Source: Agrococcus pavilionensis RW1 (lineage in GTDB: Bacteria > Actinomycetota > Actinomycetes > Actinomycetales > Microbacteriaceae). Taken from it: a stretch of 35,258 bases of DNA. Under the pieces are notes generated by a model that made no database searches, was not told where the DNA came from, and saw nothing but the letters and a program-made list of their open reading frames with translations. A program made the translations under genes and the position numbers. Where the stretch lies: positions 1 to 35,258 of the forward strand of contig NZ_ASHR01000029.1 of assembly GCF_000400485.1 (NCBI RefSeq). Reading direction: 5' to 3'. Below are positions 28,086 through 35,258 of this stretch, piece by piece (position 1 is the stretch's first letter; each line of letters starts with the position of its first letter).

Positions 28086-28161
28086 GGGTCTGTGGCGCAG
28101 CTGGTAGCGCACCTGCATGGCATGCAGGGGGTCGGGGGTTCGAGTCCCCCCAGATCCACCA
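28086..28161 (+). tRNA. tRNA-Ala (anticodon GGC)
   Basis: A complete 76-base cloverleaf. Acceptor GGGTCTG pairs with CAGATCC (one G.U). The D arm is GCGC-AGCTGGTA-GCGC. The anticodon arm is CCTGC-ATGGCAT-GCAGG, with GGC at positions 34-36, reading GCC alanine codons. The T arm is GGGGG-TTCGAGT-CCCCC. A discriminator and CCA are encoded. It is a common phage and island integration site, and an integrase gene follows in the same direction. Confidence 0.96.
28132..28161 (+). other. Putative attL at the 3' end of tRNA-Ala
   Basis: Tyrosine integrases of this kind usually recombine at the T-arm and acceptor end of a tRNA gene and leave it intact, with the integrase next to it. That is the arrangement here. 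The exact core cannot be defined because no long second copy is visible in the window; the best partial match is 13 bases at 34196-34208. Confidence 0.4.
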
Positions 28162-28187
28162 AAAACCCCCGGTCAGCCGGGGGTTTT
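28162..28187 (+). terminator. Intrinsic terminator of tRNA-Ala
   Basis: AAAACCCCCGG (28162-28172), loop TCAG, CCGGGGGTTTT (28177-28187) make a perfect 11-bp stem whose right arm ends in four T, a classic rho-independent terminator directly after the CCA end. Confidence 0.9.
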
Positions 28188-28368
28188 CCGTATCGGGACC
28201 CATGTTCGCATCTGCTTCGGGTGCAGCGAGTGGGTCAGCTTAATCCGCGACGCGACGCGGCGAGTACGCGCTTCGCCTAACGAGTCCGTTCCGTCGCGAT
28301 CCTGTCCTAGTGGTCGGCCGAGGCCGCCCGCCTCCGCCGTCTATGTCGGTAGCGTGACCTCCGACCCC

Positions 28369-28590
28369 ATGACCTCCAGCGGATCGAACCTCGTGCGTCT
28401 TGACCTGTTCGGGCTCGCGCCCGGTGTGCTGCTGACCGAGCAAGAGCTCGCGGCCGCGATGAACTACAGCCGGAAGACGCTTCAGTACTGGCGACAGAGC
28501 GGGCAAGGCCCCCCGTTCATCCGCCTCGGCCGGCAAGTGCGGTATCGCGTCGGCGAGGTCGTGAAGTGGCTGGAGCACAGCGATGCCTGA
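28369..28590 (+). CDS. Small helix-turn-helix protein, excisionase-like
   Basis: A 73-residue protein with a MerR/AlpA-type HTH: VLLTEQELAAAMNYSRKTLQYWRQSG followed by PPFIRLGRQVRYRVGEVVKWLE, a wing typical of excisionases and DNA-binding Helix-turn-helix_17 proteins. It lies between the tRNA and the integrase and overlaps the integrase start by eight bases. It may direct excision or control integrase expression. No clear Shine-Dalgarno sequence precedes the ATG. A GTG at 28354 would add five residues and has TATGTC six bases upstream, a possible leaderless start. Confidence 0.75.
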   Translation: MTSSGSNLVRLDLFGLAPGVLLTEQELAAAMNYSRKTLQYWRQSGQGPPFIRLGRQVRYRVGEVVKWLEHSDA

Positions 28591-29800
28591 GCGGGGCCGA
28601 CCGCGACTCGCACCGGGCACCTTCGGTGCCGTGAGGTTCAGCGATACGAGGAGCGGACGTGTCAGTGCACGCAGTCAGTACCGCGACTTCGCGGGCGTGA
28701 TCCATCACAAGCGAGCGACGGGCGACTCCCGTGAGGACGCGGAGCGCAAGCTCCGGGCCTCCGTGGTGGGCAGCGCTCGTGGCGAGATCTGGCTGACGCT
28801 CGATTCGAAGATCGGCGAGCTCGGTCACTGGTGGCTTGCCGGCCTGCGGTCGCTCGGCGCGGTTCAGAGGTCCACGCTCCAGAACTACGAGTACGATGCG
28901 CGGATCGTGGAGGTCAGTCTGCGAGAGGTTCGGCTCCGGGAGCTCACCGCCAGGGTCGTCGATGGCGTGGTCACGAGTCTGGCGGAGAGCGATCCAGCAC
29001 GCGCTCGCCGACTCCACTCCACGCTCGGACGCATGTGCGACGAAGCCGTGAGAATGGGAATCCTCGACGAGAACCCAGTCGACCGCGTCCGAGCACCTCG
29101 AAAGGCCAAGCGGCTTCCCTACGCCCTCGGCTTCGAGCAGACGCGAATGCTGAGGTCAGAACTGGCGGCTTGGCTGAAGGCAAATTCCCGCCCAGGTCCG
29201 CAACCAGATCAACGCATCGCGATCATGGTAGATGTGATGATCGCATCGAGCGCCCGGATCGGCGAGCTCCTGGCTCTTCGCCACTGCGATGTCGACCTCT
29301 ACGCAACTCCGCCAACGCTTCTCATCGGCGCCACGCTCGTTGACGACGAGCGTGGCGTCCCGAGCCGGCAAGCACACACGAAGGACGAGCGACAGAAGCG
29401 CGTTATCGTTCTACCGCCGGCGATCGTGGCGGCGCTCGAGCCCCTCGTAGGGTCGCGAACTGACGAAGCGCCCATCTTCGGGAATCGCAAGGGCTCGTGG
29501 AAGCGCGCGGGAACCGTGCAGCGCGTCCTGCGGGAGTTTGTCCGAGACCGGAGGGACGTACTCGAGGCCGTCGGCATCAGGACCGATGAGATCACGCCGC
29601 ACCTGTTCCGGCGGATCTCTGCGACGCTCATCGCGGCCGAGCTGGGCGTGTACGAGGCTCAACGGCAACTGGGGCACGCATCGGTGCAGACCACCGAACG
29701 CCACTACGTCATGCCCGCGCCTCTGACTGGGGCAGCTGCGGCCGAGACGATGGACCGGCTGTTTGAGTCGATCGTTGCTGACAATTTCGATGCTGCCTAA
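28583..29800 (+). CDS. int: Tyrosine-type site-specific integrase
   Basis: A 405-residue recombinase that would insert and remove the island. The N-terminal region resembles an Arm-binding/AP2-like segment (YRDFAGVIHHKRATG). A SAM-like core-binding domain lies at about 75-170. The catalytic domain spans about 185-390. The active-site residues are visible: R225 in SSARIGELLAL, K267 in the beta-hairpin, H340 and R343 in TPHLFRRISAT, H365 in QLGHASVQTTERHY, and nucleophile Y375. All are intact, so the enzyme is probably active. Codon use is less GC-biased than upstream genes, which supports transfer. It overlaps the small HTH gene. Confidence 0.94.
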   Translation: MPERGRPRLAPGTFGAVRFSDTRSGRVSARSQYRDFAGVIHHKRATGDSREDAERKLRASVVGSARGEIWLTLDSKIGELGHWWLAGLRSLGAVQRSTLQNYEYDARIVEVSLREVRLRELTARVVDGVVTSLAESDPARARRLHSTLGRMCDEAVRMGILDENPVDRVRAPRKAKRLPYALGFEQTRMLRSELAAWLKANSRPGPQPDQRIAIMVDVMIASSARIGELLALRHCDVDLYATPPTLLIGATLVDDERGVPSRQAHTKDERQKRVIVLPPAIVAALEPLVGSRTDEAPIFGNRKGSWKRAGTVQRVLREFVRDRRDVLEAVGIRTDEITPHLFRRISATLIAAELGVYEAQRQLGHASVQTTERHYVMPAPLTGAAAAETMDRLFESIVADNFDAA

Positions 29801-30450: not shown

Positions 30451-30474
30451 ATGAAAAAGAGTGCGTCGTGGTGA
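30451..30474 (+). CDS. Seven-codon leaderless upstream frame overlapping the SIR2 gene start
   Basis: ATG AAA AAG AGT GCG TCG TGG TGA (MKKSASW). Its stop overlaps the second GTG of the SIR2 gene as GTGA, so a ribosome ending here could restart on the large gene. The large gene has no strong Shine-Dalgarno sequence of its own. Translation of the short frame is an inference from the TAAAGT-N6-ATG arrangement. Confidence 0.4.
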   Translation: MKKSASW

Positions 30475-33413
30475 CGACCCTTGAGCGCTTGAAGCGGGCG
30501 CTTGCCCGCCGCGAGGTAGTGGTCGTGACCGGGACCGGAATCAGTACGGCGCTTGGATCAGGGCAACCTCAGCTGAGTTGGATTGGGCTTCTGAAGGACG
30601 GCGTGCAGCGAATCGCCGACCGCAATTCAGCTCGCGCCGACGTGCTGAGTCAGCAGATCGAGATCGCCTCGTCCGCGGCAGACTTGGCCGCTGTAGCAGC
30701 TGAGGTGAAGCGTCATCTGGGCGATGACTTCGGCCGATGGATCTCCATCGCCTTAGGGGACATCAAACCATCAAATCAGCGCCTGGCGAACGCAATAGCC
30801 GCCTTGGACTGCCCGATCCTCACCACCAACTACGACACGCTGCTCGAGACAGCCTTAGGTCGCGACTCCGTGAGCTGGGCGCAACCCACCTCGATCCGAG
30901 ATGTAGTTCGCCACGCACGACCGAGCATTGGCCACTTGCACGGTGTTTGGAGCGACCCGTCGTCCCTCGTGTTTTCCACTTCGGACTACGAGGCGCTACT
31001 GCGGCAAGAGGGGGCGCAGGAGATCCAGTCGAGCGCCTTCACAATGAAGACGTTCCTCTTCGTCGGTGTCGGGGCGGGCCTGGACGACCCCAACTTCAGC
31101 CCGATGGTTGACGCCTACGGCAGGCACTTCCATGCAGCCGACGGGTCGCACTTCAGGTTGTGTCGCGATGCCGACGTAGATGCGGCGACCGACGTCGGGG
31201 TCGTAGCTGACGTCGGCTACGGCACAAGTCATGACGACCTTGCAGCGTTCCTGGAAGGTCTGGTCGCAAGCATCGTCCCAGATCGATCAGGAGAGGTGTT
31301 AGCCCGGTCGCGCGCAGTCCTGGTAGATCAGCTGCGGGACAACTCCGCACTTTGGCGAGACGACGAATCCATACTCGTGGGCGGCCTCACTGACCTCATT
31401 GTGGAGCCGATCTTCCTGCCCGCTCCCCATGATCAGTTCGTGAACGACTCTGCGCTGGTGGGCCGTTCAAGCGTTTCCGAGCCGTTGGACGCCGACCAAC
31501 TGATCGACCAGGGCGGGATCGTGTTGGTCGCGGGAGAGGCTAGCGCTGGGGTAACAACGGCTGTGATCTGGCTTCTCGACAGAGCAAGCGAGCGCAAGAG
31601 TCTGCCGCCCGTCCTTGTGAGTGAGCCGCACGCGGCGGGTCACCATCCTGTCTCACGGGTGGTGGAGCGCTCACTGAAGTCTTGGGACTGCGACCTCGCC
31701 CATGCCAATCCAGTTGTCGTGGGAGTCGACAACCTCCGACGCGAGCCCGCAAAGACATATCGCCGCGCCCTCGCGGACGTCCACGATCTGAACGGCCCGC
31801 TGAAGGTCGTGGGGGTGCGTCAGGAAGATGCGCTTGAGATCGCCGCTGCCCTGCAAGCGTCCGACGACGGCGTGGCGATTGCGATTGCATTCCTTGGTCG
31901 CTTCAGTGATCGCGAGGCTCTAGCGCTCGCCTCACGCATCGCACCCGCAAAGGGCGAAGAGGTTGCGCAGGCGGCCATGGAAATGGTCCGCTCTAGAAAC
32001 CTGCCTAGGACACCTGTAACGATCACTCTGGTCATCGAACTCCTCGCCGCTGGCATCGCGCTCGAGGACGGCGACACCGACAGTTGGGTCCTGAGTAAGT
32101 ACTTAGACCTACTGCTGGAGAAGCATCTGCCGCCAATGGTCCCGCAGACCACCATGCTCCTTCGCAACAAGCGAGTCGCGTTGGAGGAGATCGCTTCGGG
32201 CTTCGTTGAGACGCGCACGGACTCCGCTCGAAGGGAGGAACTGACAGCTCGCCTCGAAGCCCTCTTCACGAGGCTCGGTTGGGACTTCGACGCCGTCCAG
32301 CTCCTGAACGAGCTCATCGCTCGCCAAGTCCTCAAGCGTCGCGAGGACGGTTCTATCAGTTTTCAACGCTCCGTCTACCTCGAACTTTCGGCGGGCATGG
32401 CCGCTCGCAAGAACGAGGCGCTCCGTCAGGCGATGTTGGACCATCCGATCGAGATGGCTCCAATTGTTCGCAGTTACGTCGCGATGACACGCAGCGACGA
32501 AGCCATGCTGGAGGTGGTCGACCGCGAACTGGACCGAATCTTCAATGAGAAGCCCACGGGAAACATCTTTGCCTCAGTCAAGCAGCAGCCGGCGAGGAAG
32601 GAACTCTTTGCCGATCGAGGCGAGCCGGAGGAAGGCGAGGATCAGAACGAAAGTGAAGTTGCTCGCGATGGGCTGATGTACGACGCGTCTGACGATTCTG
32701 ATTCGCCCGCCTTCTTGCAGGGCCACTTGGATGAGCTGTCGGGGGGACGGCTCGCGATGCTCGTCGTCGACCTCGCGTCTCGAGTGCTGCGTGACTCGGA
32801 CGAGGTGCCCAATCAAGAGCTGAAACAACGAGTCCTGATCAAGTTGTTGCATTGCTGGTCGGTCTTCACGGATCTGTACGAAGCGGATTTGCGAGAGCTC
32901 CCCAACCTCGATGAGACCGTAGCGAGACTGCACCCGGAGGACGAGCCATCTCCGGAGCAGGTCGAGGACCTAAAGACGGCCCTAGTGAGCGTTGTACCGA
33001 TGTTCCTCACGCTGTCCGGCATGCGGACCTGTTTGGCTGCGGCAAGTCTGCACCGAGCCTTGAGTGACGTGGCGTTGGAGGACGGTTCAACTGCGTCGCT
33101 GATGCGGGTCCTCGCTCTCTACGCAAGCGACAGCCGCCGATGGGTCGCAGCCCTCAACGACCTGGACGACGCAGCGGCAAGAACGTTCTTCGGCGCATCC
33201 TTCCTCGCGAGTCTTGCCCGCTACTCGTTCCTAGCTGACGACTCTTTGACCGACGGGGAGAGGGCGCAGCTGCGAGCGTTCCTGAGGCGCATCGTGCAGT
33301 TGCGCTACCGCTTCAATGGTGTGCAGGAGCGCAATGAGGCGCTGAACCGGTTCGAGCAGCGACTCCGGCAAGACCGGTTGGCCCGAGGGCGGACTATCGC
33401 GATCGAGGTGTGA
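30468..33413 (+). CDS. SIR2-like domain protein with a STAND/NACHT-like middle region (candidate anti-phage defence)
   Basis: A 981-residue protein from GTG at 30468 (or GTG at 30471). The N-terminal SIR2-like domain (about 5-275) has VVVVTGTGISTALGSG at 17-32, ILTTNYDTLLE at 117-127 with N121, SIGHLHG at 153-159 with the catalytic-type histidine, and FLFVGVGAGLDDPNF at 196-210. In defence proteins this type hydrolyses NAD. The middle region resembles a STAND NTPase: GEASAGVTT at 356-364 aligns with the Walker A GxxxxGK(S/T) but has V362 in place of lysine. PVVVGVDNL at 415-423 is a Walker B candidate. The rest (about 450-981) is mostly helical, with an acidic linker near 725-755, and could be a sensor. 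The overall plan recalls Avs5-type and DSR proteins, but I cannot assign a named family. Codon use is markedly less GC-rich than in the core genes. Confidence 0.85.
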   Translation: MVTTLERLKRALARREVVVVTGTGISTALGSGQPQLSWIGLLKDGVQRIADRNSARADVLSQQIEIASSAADLAAVAAEVKRHLGDDFGRWISIALGDIKPSNQRLANAIAALDCPILTTNYDTLLETALGRDSVSWAQPTSIRDVVRHARPSIGHLHGVWSDPSSLVFSTSDYEALLRQEGAQEIQSSAFTMKTFLFVGVGAGLDDPNFSPMVDAYGRHFHAADGSHFRLCRDADVDAATDVGVVADVGYGTSHDDLAAFLEGLVASIVPDRSGEVLARSRAVLVDQLRDNSALWRDDESILVGGLTDLIVEPIFLPAPHDQFVNDSALVGRSSVSEPLDADQLIDQGGIVLVAGEASAGVTTAVIWLLDRASERKSLPPVLVSEPHAAGHHPVSRVVERSLKSWDCDLAHANPVVVGVDNLRREPAKTYRRALADVHDLNGPLKVVGVRQEDALEIAAALQASDDGVAIAIAFLGRFSDREALALASRIAPAKGEEVAQAAMEMVRSRNLPRTPVTITLVIELLAAGIALEDGDTDSWVLSKYLDLLLEKHLPPMVPQTTMLLRNKRVALEEIASGFVETRTDSARREELTARLEALFTRLGWDFDAVQLLNELIARQVLKRREDGSISFQRSVYLELSAGMAARKNEALRQAMLDHPIEMAPIVRSYVAMTRSDEAMLEVVDRELDRIFNEKPTGNIFASVKQQPARKELFADRGEPEEGEDQNESEVARDGLMYDASDDSDSPAFLQGHLDELSGGRLAMLVVDLASRVLRDSDEVPNQELKQRVLIKLLHCWSVFTDLYEADLRELPNLDETVARLHPEDEPSPEQVEDLKTALVSVVPMFLTLSGMRTCLAAASLHRALSDVALEDGSTASLMRVLALYASDSRRWVAALNDLDDAAARTFFGASFLASLARYSFLADDSLTDGERAQLRAFLRRIVQLRYRFNGVQERNEALNRFEQRLRQDRLARGRTIAIEV

Positions 33414-34172: not shown

Positions 34173-34193
34173 ATGCGCTCCTCTCGCGAGGGT

Positions 34194-34217
34194 GTGGGTT
34201 CGAGTCCCACCGCCGGT
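34194..34217 (+). other. tRNA T-arm relic
   Basis: GTGGG-TTCGAGT-CCCAC (34194-34210) is a perfect five-pair T arm with a canonical loop, followed by CGCCGGT like an acceptor strand. CTCTCGCGAGGG just before it could be a long variable arm of the Ser/Leu type. No matching 5' acceptor, D arm or anticodon arm is found upstream, so this is a fragment. It shares 13 identical bases (GGGTTCGAGTCCC) with tRNA-Ala, which is expected of any related T arm. Confidence 0.55.
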
Positions 34218-34218
34218 A

Positions 34219-34374
34219 CTAGCCGCCGTGGATGCCTGGAAGGCCTTCGTCCGGATCGTACGGCGGCCGCTCACCTCCAACGGGTCGTGACGCCCAGCCG
34301 CCCGACGGGCACGCGCCGTCGCGGGGCGTGTGCATGCAGCGCTCGCACACGTCGCCGGGAAAGTCGAACGTCAT
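34219..34374 (-). CDS. Tiny cysteine-containing hypothetical protein
   Basis: A 51-residue protein (MTFDFPGDVCERCMHTPRDG...). Its start overlaps the stop of the 69-residue gene as ATGA, so it is translationally coupled. It has three cysteines and a histidine in CERCMHTPRDGAC, which could form a small metal site (inference), and a Pro/Gly-rich tail. I do not recognise a family. It ends just beside the tRNA relic. Confidence 0.5.
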   Translation of the reverse strand: MTFDFPGDVCERCMHTPRDGACPSGGWASRPVGGERPPYDPDEGLPGIHGG

Positions 34375-34650: not shown

Positions 34651-35258
34651 TGTACCGGGTCATGACCTTGGTGCGGTTCGGGTGATGGGTGGGGCTCCGA
34701 TGGCTGAGTGGATGCGTTCAGTGTTGTAGCGCTGGAGCCAGGGGGCAAGGGCGGCGGCGCGTTCGGCGTTCGAGGTGAAGGGCTGCCGGTAGGCCCATTC
34801 GCTCTGCAGAGTGCGGTTGAATCGTTCGACCTTGCCGTTCTGCCACGGGCAGTGGGGGCGGATGAACACCTGACGTGCACCGAGCTCCGCAACGGTCTCC
34901 CGCAGCGAGTAGCGGTACGCCCAGGCATTGTCGGTCATGATCCGCTCGATCGAGGCGATGCCGTGCGCGGCGAAGAACGCAGCCGCTCGGCGCAGGAAGC
35001 CGGCGCAGGTGGCGCCCTTCTCGTCCGCGAGGATCTCCGAGTACGCGAGCCGGGAGTGGTCGTCGACGAGCGAGTGGACGAAGTCGTAGCCCGAGCGGCG
35101 GTCCCGATCCCGGTCCGCGCCCACGCCGCGGCCGAGCGCGCGCCAGCCGCCGCCGTCGGGGATGCGGCCGAGCTTCTTCACGTCCATGTGGACCAGCTCG
35201 CCCGGCCGCTCCCGCTCGTAGCGGATCGCGGTCTGCTTCGAGGTGCGGATCAGCTCCC
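34651..35258 (-). mobile_element. IS481-family insertion sequence, cut by the window edge
   Basis: The element appears to end at TGTACCGGGTCATGACC, starting at 34651. This begins with TGT, as IS481-family ends do, and the transposase stop lies nine bases inside. The six bases just outside, ACTAGC (34645-34650), fit the NCTAGN target duplicated by IS481. The other end is beyond the window. Confidence 0.75.
34660..35258 (-). CDS. IS481-family transposase (partial, N-terminus outside the window)
   Basis: The catalytic half of a DDE transposase. The frame is open through the right edge (ELIRTSKQTAIRYERERPG precedes the block below). The integrase-like core shows GELVHMDVKKLGRIPDGG with the first Asp, VHSLVDDHSRLAYSEIL, ERIMTDNAWAYRYS with the second Asp, and HCPWQNGKVERFNRTLQSEW with the Glu. 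The C-terminus ends LQRYNTERIHSAIG, typical of IS481 proteins. The N-terminal HTH is not in the window. All visible catalytic residues are intact, so the copy may be functional. Confidence 0.92.
   Translation of the reverse strand, partial: ELIRTSKQTAIRYERERPGELVHMDVKKLGRIPDGGGWRALGRGVGADRDRDRRSGYDFVHSLVDDHSRLAYSEILADEKGATCAGFLRRAAAFFAAHGIASIERIMTDNAWAYRYSLRETVAELGARQVFIRPHCPWQNGKVERFNRTLQSEWAYRQPFTSNAERAAALAPWLQRYNTERIHSAIGAPPITRTAPRS

Follow-up and report, generated by a model that had tools for sequence, protein, structure and literature searches.

A STAND/NACHT-type module without a Walker A lysine behind a SIR2 head in a tRNA-Ala element of Agrococcus

STAND switches such as those of NLRs, Apaf-1, and Avs proteins are usually described as ATP-driven. 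Whether a STAND module that has lost the lysine of its P-loop is a broken part or a working one is the question raised by a gene near the end of a 35,258-nucleotide stretch of DNA from Agrococcus pavilionensis RW1 (contig NZ_ASHR01000029.1, analyzed over its whole length and hereafter called the window). The gene lies on the forward strand at 30468..33413 and encodes a protein of 981 residues, for which an earlier note, made from the letters alone, had claimed a SIR2-type N terminus, a STAND-like middle region, and a P-loop with valine in place of the Walker A lysine. Structure prediction, which could have contradicted this description, instead gave both a SIR2 fold and a NACHT/STAND fold, and the valine proved to be there.

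The protein consists of a SIR2 head, a STAND/NACHT-type module, and a helical C terminus, all encoded on the forward strand. The head (residues 1-271, 30468..31280) is of the SIR2 NADase type and has both N121 and H158 intact. It is followed by the central module (residues ~272-641, 31281..32390), for which the structure models predict the P-loop NTPase fold, helical domain, and winged helix expected of a STAND/NACHT protein; the NLRP3 and NLRC4 structures are among the matches listed for it by Foldseek and VIA-align, and its kin match PDC-S60 and nSTAND_NTPase4. The remaining residues, 642-981 (32391..33410), form a helical region that we presume to be the sensor; prediction is poor over a linker at ~717-736, and a conserved segment follows at ~771-786. 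Translation was taken to start at the GTG at 30468, with a second GTG at 30471. By eye, a seven-codon open reading frame (ORF) can be made out at 30451-30474 on the same strand; the overlap of its stop codon with the GTG at 30471 would be compatible with translational coupling and suggests 30471 as the true start.

The altered P-loop, GEASAGVTT, spans residues 356-364 (31533..31559), with V362 encoded at 31551-31553. To place this residue in context, we compared the window protein with its closest relatives in a column test on 24 tails, 18 from distinct members of a single clade, the window protein included, and six from relatives outside it. At the position of the Walker A lysine, the clade has Leu in 13 members and Val in 5, and neither Lys nor Gly in any. 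The six outside relatives carry Lys (four), Arg (one), or Ser (one), and lysine was recognized by pattern in all 12 of the more distant STAND matches inspected (L072-L082, L088) and is present in the three proteins that combine a similar head with another STAND type (L010, L035, L068). The earlier note had proposed an alignment of homologs to see whether V362 is conserved; what is conserved is the loss of lysine (18/18), whereas valine itself is a minority state (5/18, with Leu in the other 13).

The rest of the pocket is kept. The loop glycine, G361, and the Walker B aspartate, D421 of the Asp-Asn pair D421 N422 (31728..31733), are invariant in 24/24 rows, with a variable residue following the aspartate, and T/S363 is retained in 18/18 clade members and in 5/6 outside relatives. 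Three further positions set the clade apart: a tryptophan six residues on from V362 (W368; 17/18 against 0/6 outside), an arginine or lysine at position 514 within the GxP-like LPRTP motif (residues 512-516, 32001..32015; 18/18 against 2/6), and W605 (18/18 against 1/6). The variability of column 362 itself falls at the 9.7th percentile among 680 clade columns. In the seven of 18 copies whose codons were examined, the position is encoded by GTA, GTC, GTT, CTC, or CTG, always giving Leu or Val; synonymous sites are saturated, and the ratio of nonsynonymous to synonymous rates (dN/dS) is thus not computable. That Leu or Val is kept through such different synonymous codons argues that the window copy has not simply decayed from lysine-bearing homologs, an alternative that the earlier note had itself raised. 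The pattern in the clade is the one to expect of a pocket that is in use and has changed at a single residue. In the wider family, two phosphoesterase-STAND proteins carry Arg (L064, 2929-6153, Sinorhizobium) and Ser (L069, 2920-6078, Paracoccus) at the lysine position, through a separate change or changes.

The 18 distinct members were pooled from class-wide, family, contig-scan, plasmid, and around-L004 searches. A class-wide search with the window protein matched 7 of 394 genomes and brought up L004, a protein with the same middle and C terminus, a metallophosphoesterase head, and the P-loop GEASSGLTS. The family search matched 8 of 299 genomes, in seven of which (counting the window's own) the gene was full length, and a scan of all genome contigs gave 10 loci; at the order level, the module was found in 2 of 347 genomes, again counting the window's own. 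A search around L004 matched 80 of 249 genomes, with full-length members coming from G112 and G1116 only. The six outside relatives derive from plasmid searches, in which seven plasmid records were read (H4, H20-H24, H28). The contig and viral-contig scans used five closer tails and thus favor close relatives; nine divergent tails yielded no usable pattern. We dropped duplicate proteins (L025, identical to L018; L027, to L016; L103, to L024) and repeats of counted loci (L002, L012, L013, L022, L023, L070, L102), did not count weak matches (G830, G465, and further low-scoring rows), and excluded L010, L035, and L068, with their other STAND types, from the tree and the column test. All clade members with a named host belong to Actinomycetota, the phylum to which the whole-genome searches, but not those of contigs and plasmids, were confined.

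In the tree of the 24 tails, the 18 lysine-less proteins lie on one side of a branch with support 100/99. Removal of three long-branched rows leaves this grouping at 100/100. The five valine proteins then form a clade of their own (100/99), and a further branch (98/97) separates the 16 SIR2-headed proteins from the rest, the two lysine-less proteins with a phosphoesterase head being their neighbors. These two (L004 and L071) both contain the metallophosphoesterase motifs. The outside relatives include long branches, which drew a warning from the program. On the unproven assumption that the tree is rooted among these relatives, we infer that lysine was lost in a phosphoesterase-headed ancestor, that the head was then exchanged for SIR2, and that Leu changed to Val once. 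The presence of one lysine-less module under two heads, with its pocket kept, makes it look like a working part that tolerated exchange of its effector. Two clade loci have interrupted frames: L026 (Gordonia otitidis), in which most of the SIR2 head is missing, and L028 (Rhodococcus aetherivorans), which is split near the C terminus. A Deinococcus protein (L067) was labeled by eye as having a nuclease head.

What the module would control is indicated by the head. Residues 1-271 have the SIR2 fold and the Asn and His of the NAD site that characterize SIR2_2 or antiphage-type sirtuins, and in a profile search the nearest solved sequence is vertebrate FAM118B (3.2e-31), against 3e-10 for bacterial ThsA. 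N121 and H158 line up with N163 and H206 of FAM118B, mutants of which are described in PMC12700824. From these residues, the SIR2 head would be expected to hydrolyze NAD. A close relative of the head (32% identity over residues 6-269, 3e-40) also occurs on a different C-terminal region, in L003 (G052, match 1501-2298).

The earlier note had suggested comparison with Avs5, DSR1/2, and ThsA. Avs5 (AVAST type 5) has the corresponding layout, with a STAND NTPase module and a helical tail behind its SIR2 head, and the best Foldseek match of the first model, among the matches listed, is Avs5 9jap (9.7e-12). No Avs-named family appears among the 11 PADLOC matches of the window protein, and it is unconfirmed that the library holds an Avs5 model. 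The two differ at the P-loop. In PaAvs5, the Walker A Gly and Lys are both needed, and replacement of Lys by Ala abolished immunity (PMC12931631), whereas the window protein has V362; given this requirement, the clade must hold nucleotide in some other way or do without it. ThsA, DSR1/DSR2, KomC, and FAM118B share with the window protein the SIR2 domain and its NAD-site residues but have other regulatory parts, and their sequence matches stay within the SIR2 portion. The ThsA match is limited to residues 6-237, and what follows is STAND-like rather than the SLOG/STALD or macro domain, with a ThsB partner, of a ThsA system. The PADLOC matches to Dsr1 (100-202) and Dsr2 (117-174) are likewise confined to the SIR2 part, and the NCBIfam Dsr2 model scores 16.2 bits against a cutoff of 1400, over residues 117-174 only. 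Membership of the whole protein in Dsr2 or ThsA was thus ruled out, with matches that cover the SIR2 part alone.

The closest named relative of the module and tail is PDC-S60 (PDLC05051), a PADLOC candidate defense family of metallophosphoesterase-STAND proteins whose STAND module and C-terminal tail are homologous to those of the clade. This link runs through other clade members, the tails of which align and form a tree with such proteins; the window protein itself has no PDC-S60 match at E up to 1. L004 matches the model at 1.3e-67 in two stretches, the best at 1-300, L009 matches it at 9.9e-9 over 330-715, and a PDC-S60 match occurs in 2 of the 7 members of A7. Outside the clade, the phosphoesterase-headed P0005 matches at 3.5e-109 over 6-980. 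The window protein differs from PDC-S60 in having SIR2 as its head, and the clade differs in having Leu or Val for the P-loop lysine. We found no open-access paper for "PDC-S60" and, among the matches listed, none on the lysine-less clade.

Loss of the lysine as such is already known, and two published precedents bear on it. The SAMD9/SAMD9L family combines a SIR2-like domain with a STAND-like P-loop domain that has Gly for the Walker A Lys (PMC5445408, PMC13245274). It resembles the window protein in placing a SIR2-like domain beside a lysine-replaced P-loop. It differs in the replacement, Gly as against Leu 13 and Val 5 with Gly in 0/18 of the clade, and in the further parts of SAMD9, an AlbA/tRNase domain, TPR, and OB-fold, for which the window protein gave no match (Pfam, E up to 1). 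The second precedent is the inactive STANDs of prokaryotic conflict systems (iSTAND, iSTAND2, BrxB), which belong to multigene systems, with MoxR, vWA, or PglZ as partners in MoxR-vWA systems and BREX, and whose Walker motifs are absent or eroded (PMC7159879, PMC8195603, PMC12839542). The clade shares with these modules the STAND fold and the loss of Walker A function; unlike them, it lacks only the lysine and keeps the Walker B Asp, the loop Gly, and the Thr/Ser.

Taking these observations together, we give a probability of roughly 55% to the reading that the window gene encodes a single-gene, island-borne abortive-infection NADase with a STAND module that functions independently of ordinary ATP hydrolysis. 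The helical C-terminal region, as the putative sensor, would recognize a phage product; the central module would then change conformation and drive oligomerization, and the SIR2 heads thereby brought together would hydrolyze NAD, as their intact catalytic residues suggest. A nucleotide, probably Mg-bound ADP or ATP, or a ligand equivalent to it would still sit in the module in a structural role, and the switch would be set by binding of the trigger to the sensor, not by ATP hydrolysis. The Walker B Asp and the Thr/Ser that the clade has retained favor continued binding of Mg-nucleotide. A fuller history, in which the lineage lost the Walker A lysine a single time, with the pocket otherwise intact, and later traded a phosphoesterase head for a SIR2 NADase, leaving a STAND sensor that gates a lethal NADase without ATP hydrolysis, is one that we put forward tentatively and at rather less than even odds.

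Several considerations weigh against the proposed NADase switch. To our knowledge, no defense phenotype, NADase activity, oligomer, or nucleotide content has been reported for any member of the clade. As PaAvs5 needs its lysine, a conventional module should fail when the residue is lost. At the second Walker B position, 12 of the 18 clade members have Asn, 5 have Asp, and 1 has Val, and the outside relatives have N, N, D, D, G, and R; weak hydrolysis may thus predate the loss of lysine. The column test consists of only 24 tails, with strongly diverged outside relatives (end branches of up to 4.3), and the whole-genome searches were confined to the phylum of the window, although those of contigs and plasmids were not. 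No relative was found in phage records or in viral contigs, where 54 stretches matched a pattern and none was confirmed. Among ten neighboring ORFs at the loci of seven relatives (Pfam), one is defense- or toxin-like, the RES protein by L027. Finally, even a gene that stands alone might work together with a partner encoded at an unlinked site.

The alternative that survives best, although we consider it unlikely, is that the module is free of nucleotide: the Leu or Val and the tryptophan would fill the phosphate region, and the hinge would be held off only by the C-terminal domain in a ligand-only switch. In its favor are the hydrophobic side chain that takes the place of lysine in 18/18 members and a co-conserved tryptophan that is absent from the six outside relatives, and inactive STANDs with eroded Walker motifs (iSTAND, BrxB) are described in PMC7159879, PMC8195603, and PMC12839542. 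Without Mg-nucleotide or a similar ligand, however, it is hard to see why the loop Gly should be invariant, the Thr/Ser retained, and the Walker B Asp present in 24/24 rows. Decidedly less probable is a module that serves as a nucleic-acid receptor, with the SIR2 head firing once phage DNA or RNA is bound. Such a role has been proposed for inactive STANDs (PMC8195603), and the model does contain a winged helix; this element is standard in STAND proteins, however, and several of the conserved residues lie in nucleotide motifs.

Some plant NLR pairs split sensing from ATP-driven assembly. By analogy, the window protein might be the sensor half of an unlinked pair in which a normal STAND protein encoded elsewhere provides the assembly step, an arrangement that we regard as very improbable. 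A STAND with eroded NTP-binding motifs has been published as one of two STANDs in a system (PMC8195603), and an AAA_16/DAP3-like ATPase (8.4e-10) is encoded ~2 kb upstream of the Pseudarthrobacter relative (L030, 3892-4974, reverse strand), a conceivable partner at one locus only. Against this, the window has no adjacent second STAND gene, the ten neighboring ORFs gave no NTPase or SIR2 match other than that AAA_16, and the protein already has its own effector head. Least credible, to the point of being negligible, is a decayed or neutral copy in which drift removed the lysine and left a SIR2 enzyme attached to a tail of no use. Lysine is likewise missing from two outside relatives (Arg, Ser), and two clade copies have broken frames, but the residue is Lys in 0/18 members while the rest of the loop is conserved, it has been held over saturated synonymous divergence, the module is better conserved than the SIR2 head in the L030/L031 pair (64% against 57% identity), and a change from Lys to Leu or Val takes at least two base changes in the genetic code. 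For the window copy, decay was rejected on the absence of lysine from all 18 clade members together with the tree.

The gene is carried by an integrative element at a tRNA-Ala, in line with its description in the earlier note as island cargo between an integrase and an IS element. The order in the window is tRNA-Ala (GGC; 28086..28161, +), a small helix-turn-helix protein, a tyrosine integrase, the SIR2-STAND gene, a stretch with short ORFs only, and an IS481 transposase. The 3' end of the tRNA-Ala forms the left edge of the island: this gene and the one preceding it are present in 5/5 same-genus genomes, and similarity to two of these genomes stops at 28161, the last base of the tRNA-Ala, with different DNA beyond in each. 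The helix-turn-helix ORF (28117..28590, +; Pfam HTH_17 1.9e-10, residues 105-153) is excisionase-like by position, and since its listed start falls inside the tRNA-Ala, the true start should be further down. The integrase (28583..29800, +; Pfam Phage_integrase 1.7e-12) is 31% identical to that near the Cryobacterium relative. The transposase (34660..35256, reverse strand) is truncated where the contig stops, 1.8 kb beyond the SIR2-STAND gene; its NCBIfam IS481 match (8.9e-60) scores 202.6 bits, short of the whole-protein cutoff of 224, which fits a truncated copy. Since the genome has the 3' end of the tRNA-Ala only once, no attR was found, and the right end of the island was not located. At 34192-34219 (+), a fragment resembling a tRNA 3' end (T-arm and acceptor end) was noted by eye; it occurs once in the genome, lies outside the tRNA calls, and is possibly an old attachment site.

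The composition of the gene and the surroundings of its relatives show similar signs of mobility. GC content is 61.8% in the window gene against 73.1% for bases 1-28000, and in the relatives' genes it is 49.5-56.7% against 61.5-72.0% in their surroundings, 6.6 to 17.2 points lower in 9/9 loci measured. The Cryobacterium and Mycobacterium relatives each have an integrase within 4 kb, and tRNA genes occur in 3 of the 10 loci scanned (Cryobacterium, Mycobacterium, and Galbitalea). Just upstream of the Agreia relative is a HEPN/RES-domain protein (L027, 5543-6799, +; RES 2e-24), a possible defense or toxin neighbor. This patchy, mobile distribution fits a defense gene but is no proof of one.

As far as our searches show, what is new is the clade itself, the replacement of lysine by Leu or Val in an otherwise kept pocket, and the occurrence of this module under two effector heads. 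In its SIR2-plus-STAND order, the clade offers a bacterial parallel to the lysine loss in human antiviral SAMD9. If the fuller history outlined above is true, the hydrophobic P-loop residue, the new tryptophan, and the basic GxP-like residue would serve gating, perhaps around a permanent ADP or other nucleotide or around a different ligand. This conserved lineage, which swaps heads and keeps the other pocket residues in the absence of the lysine, offers a natural set of proteins for asking whether STAND switches need ATP turnover at all.

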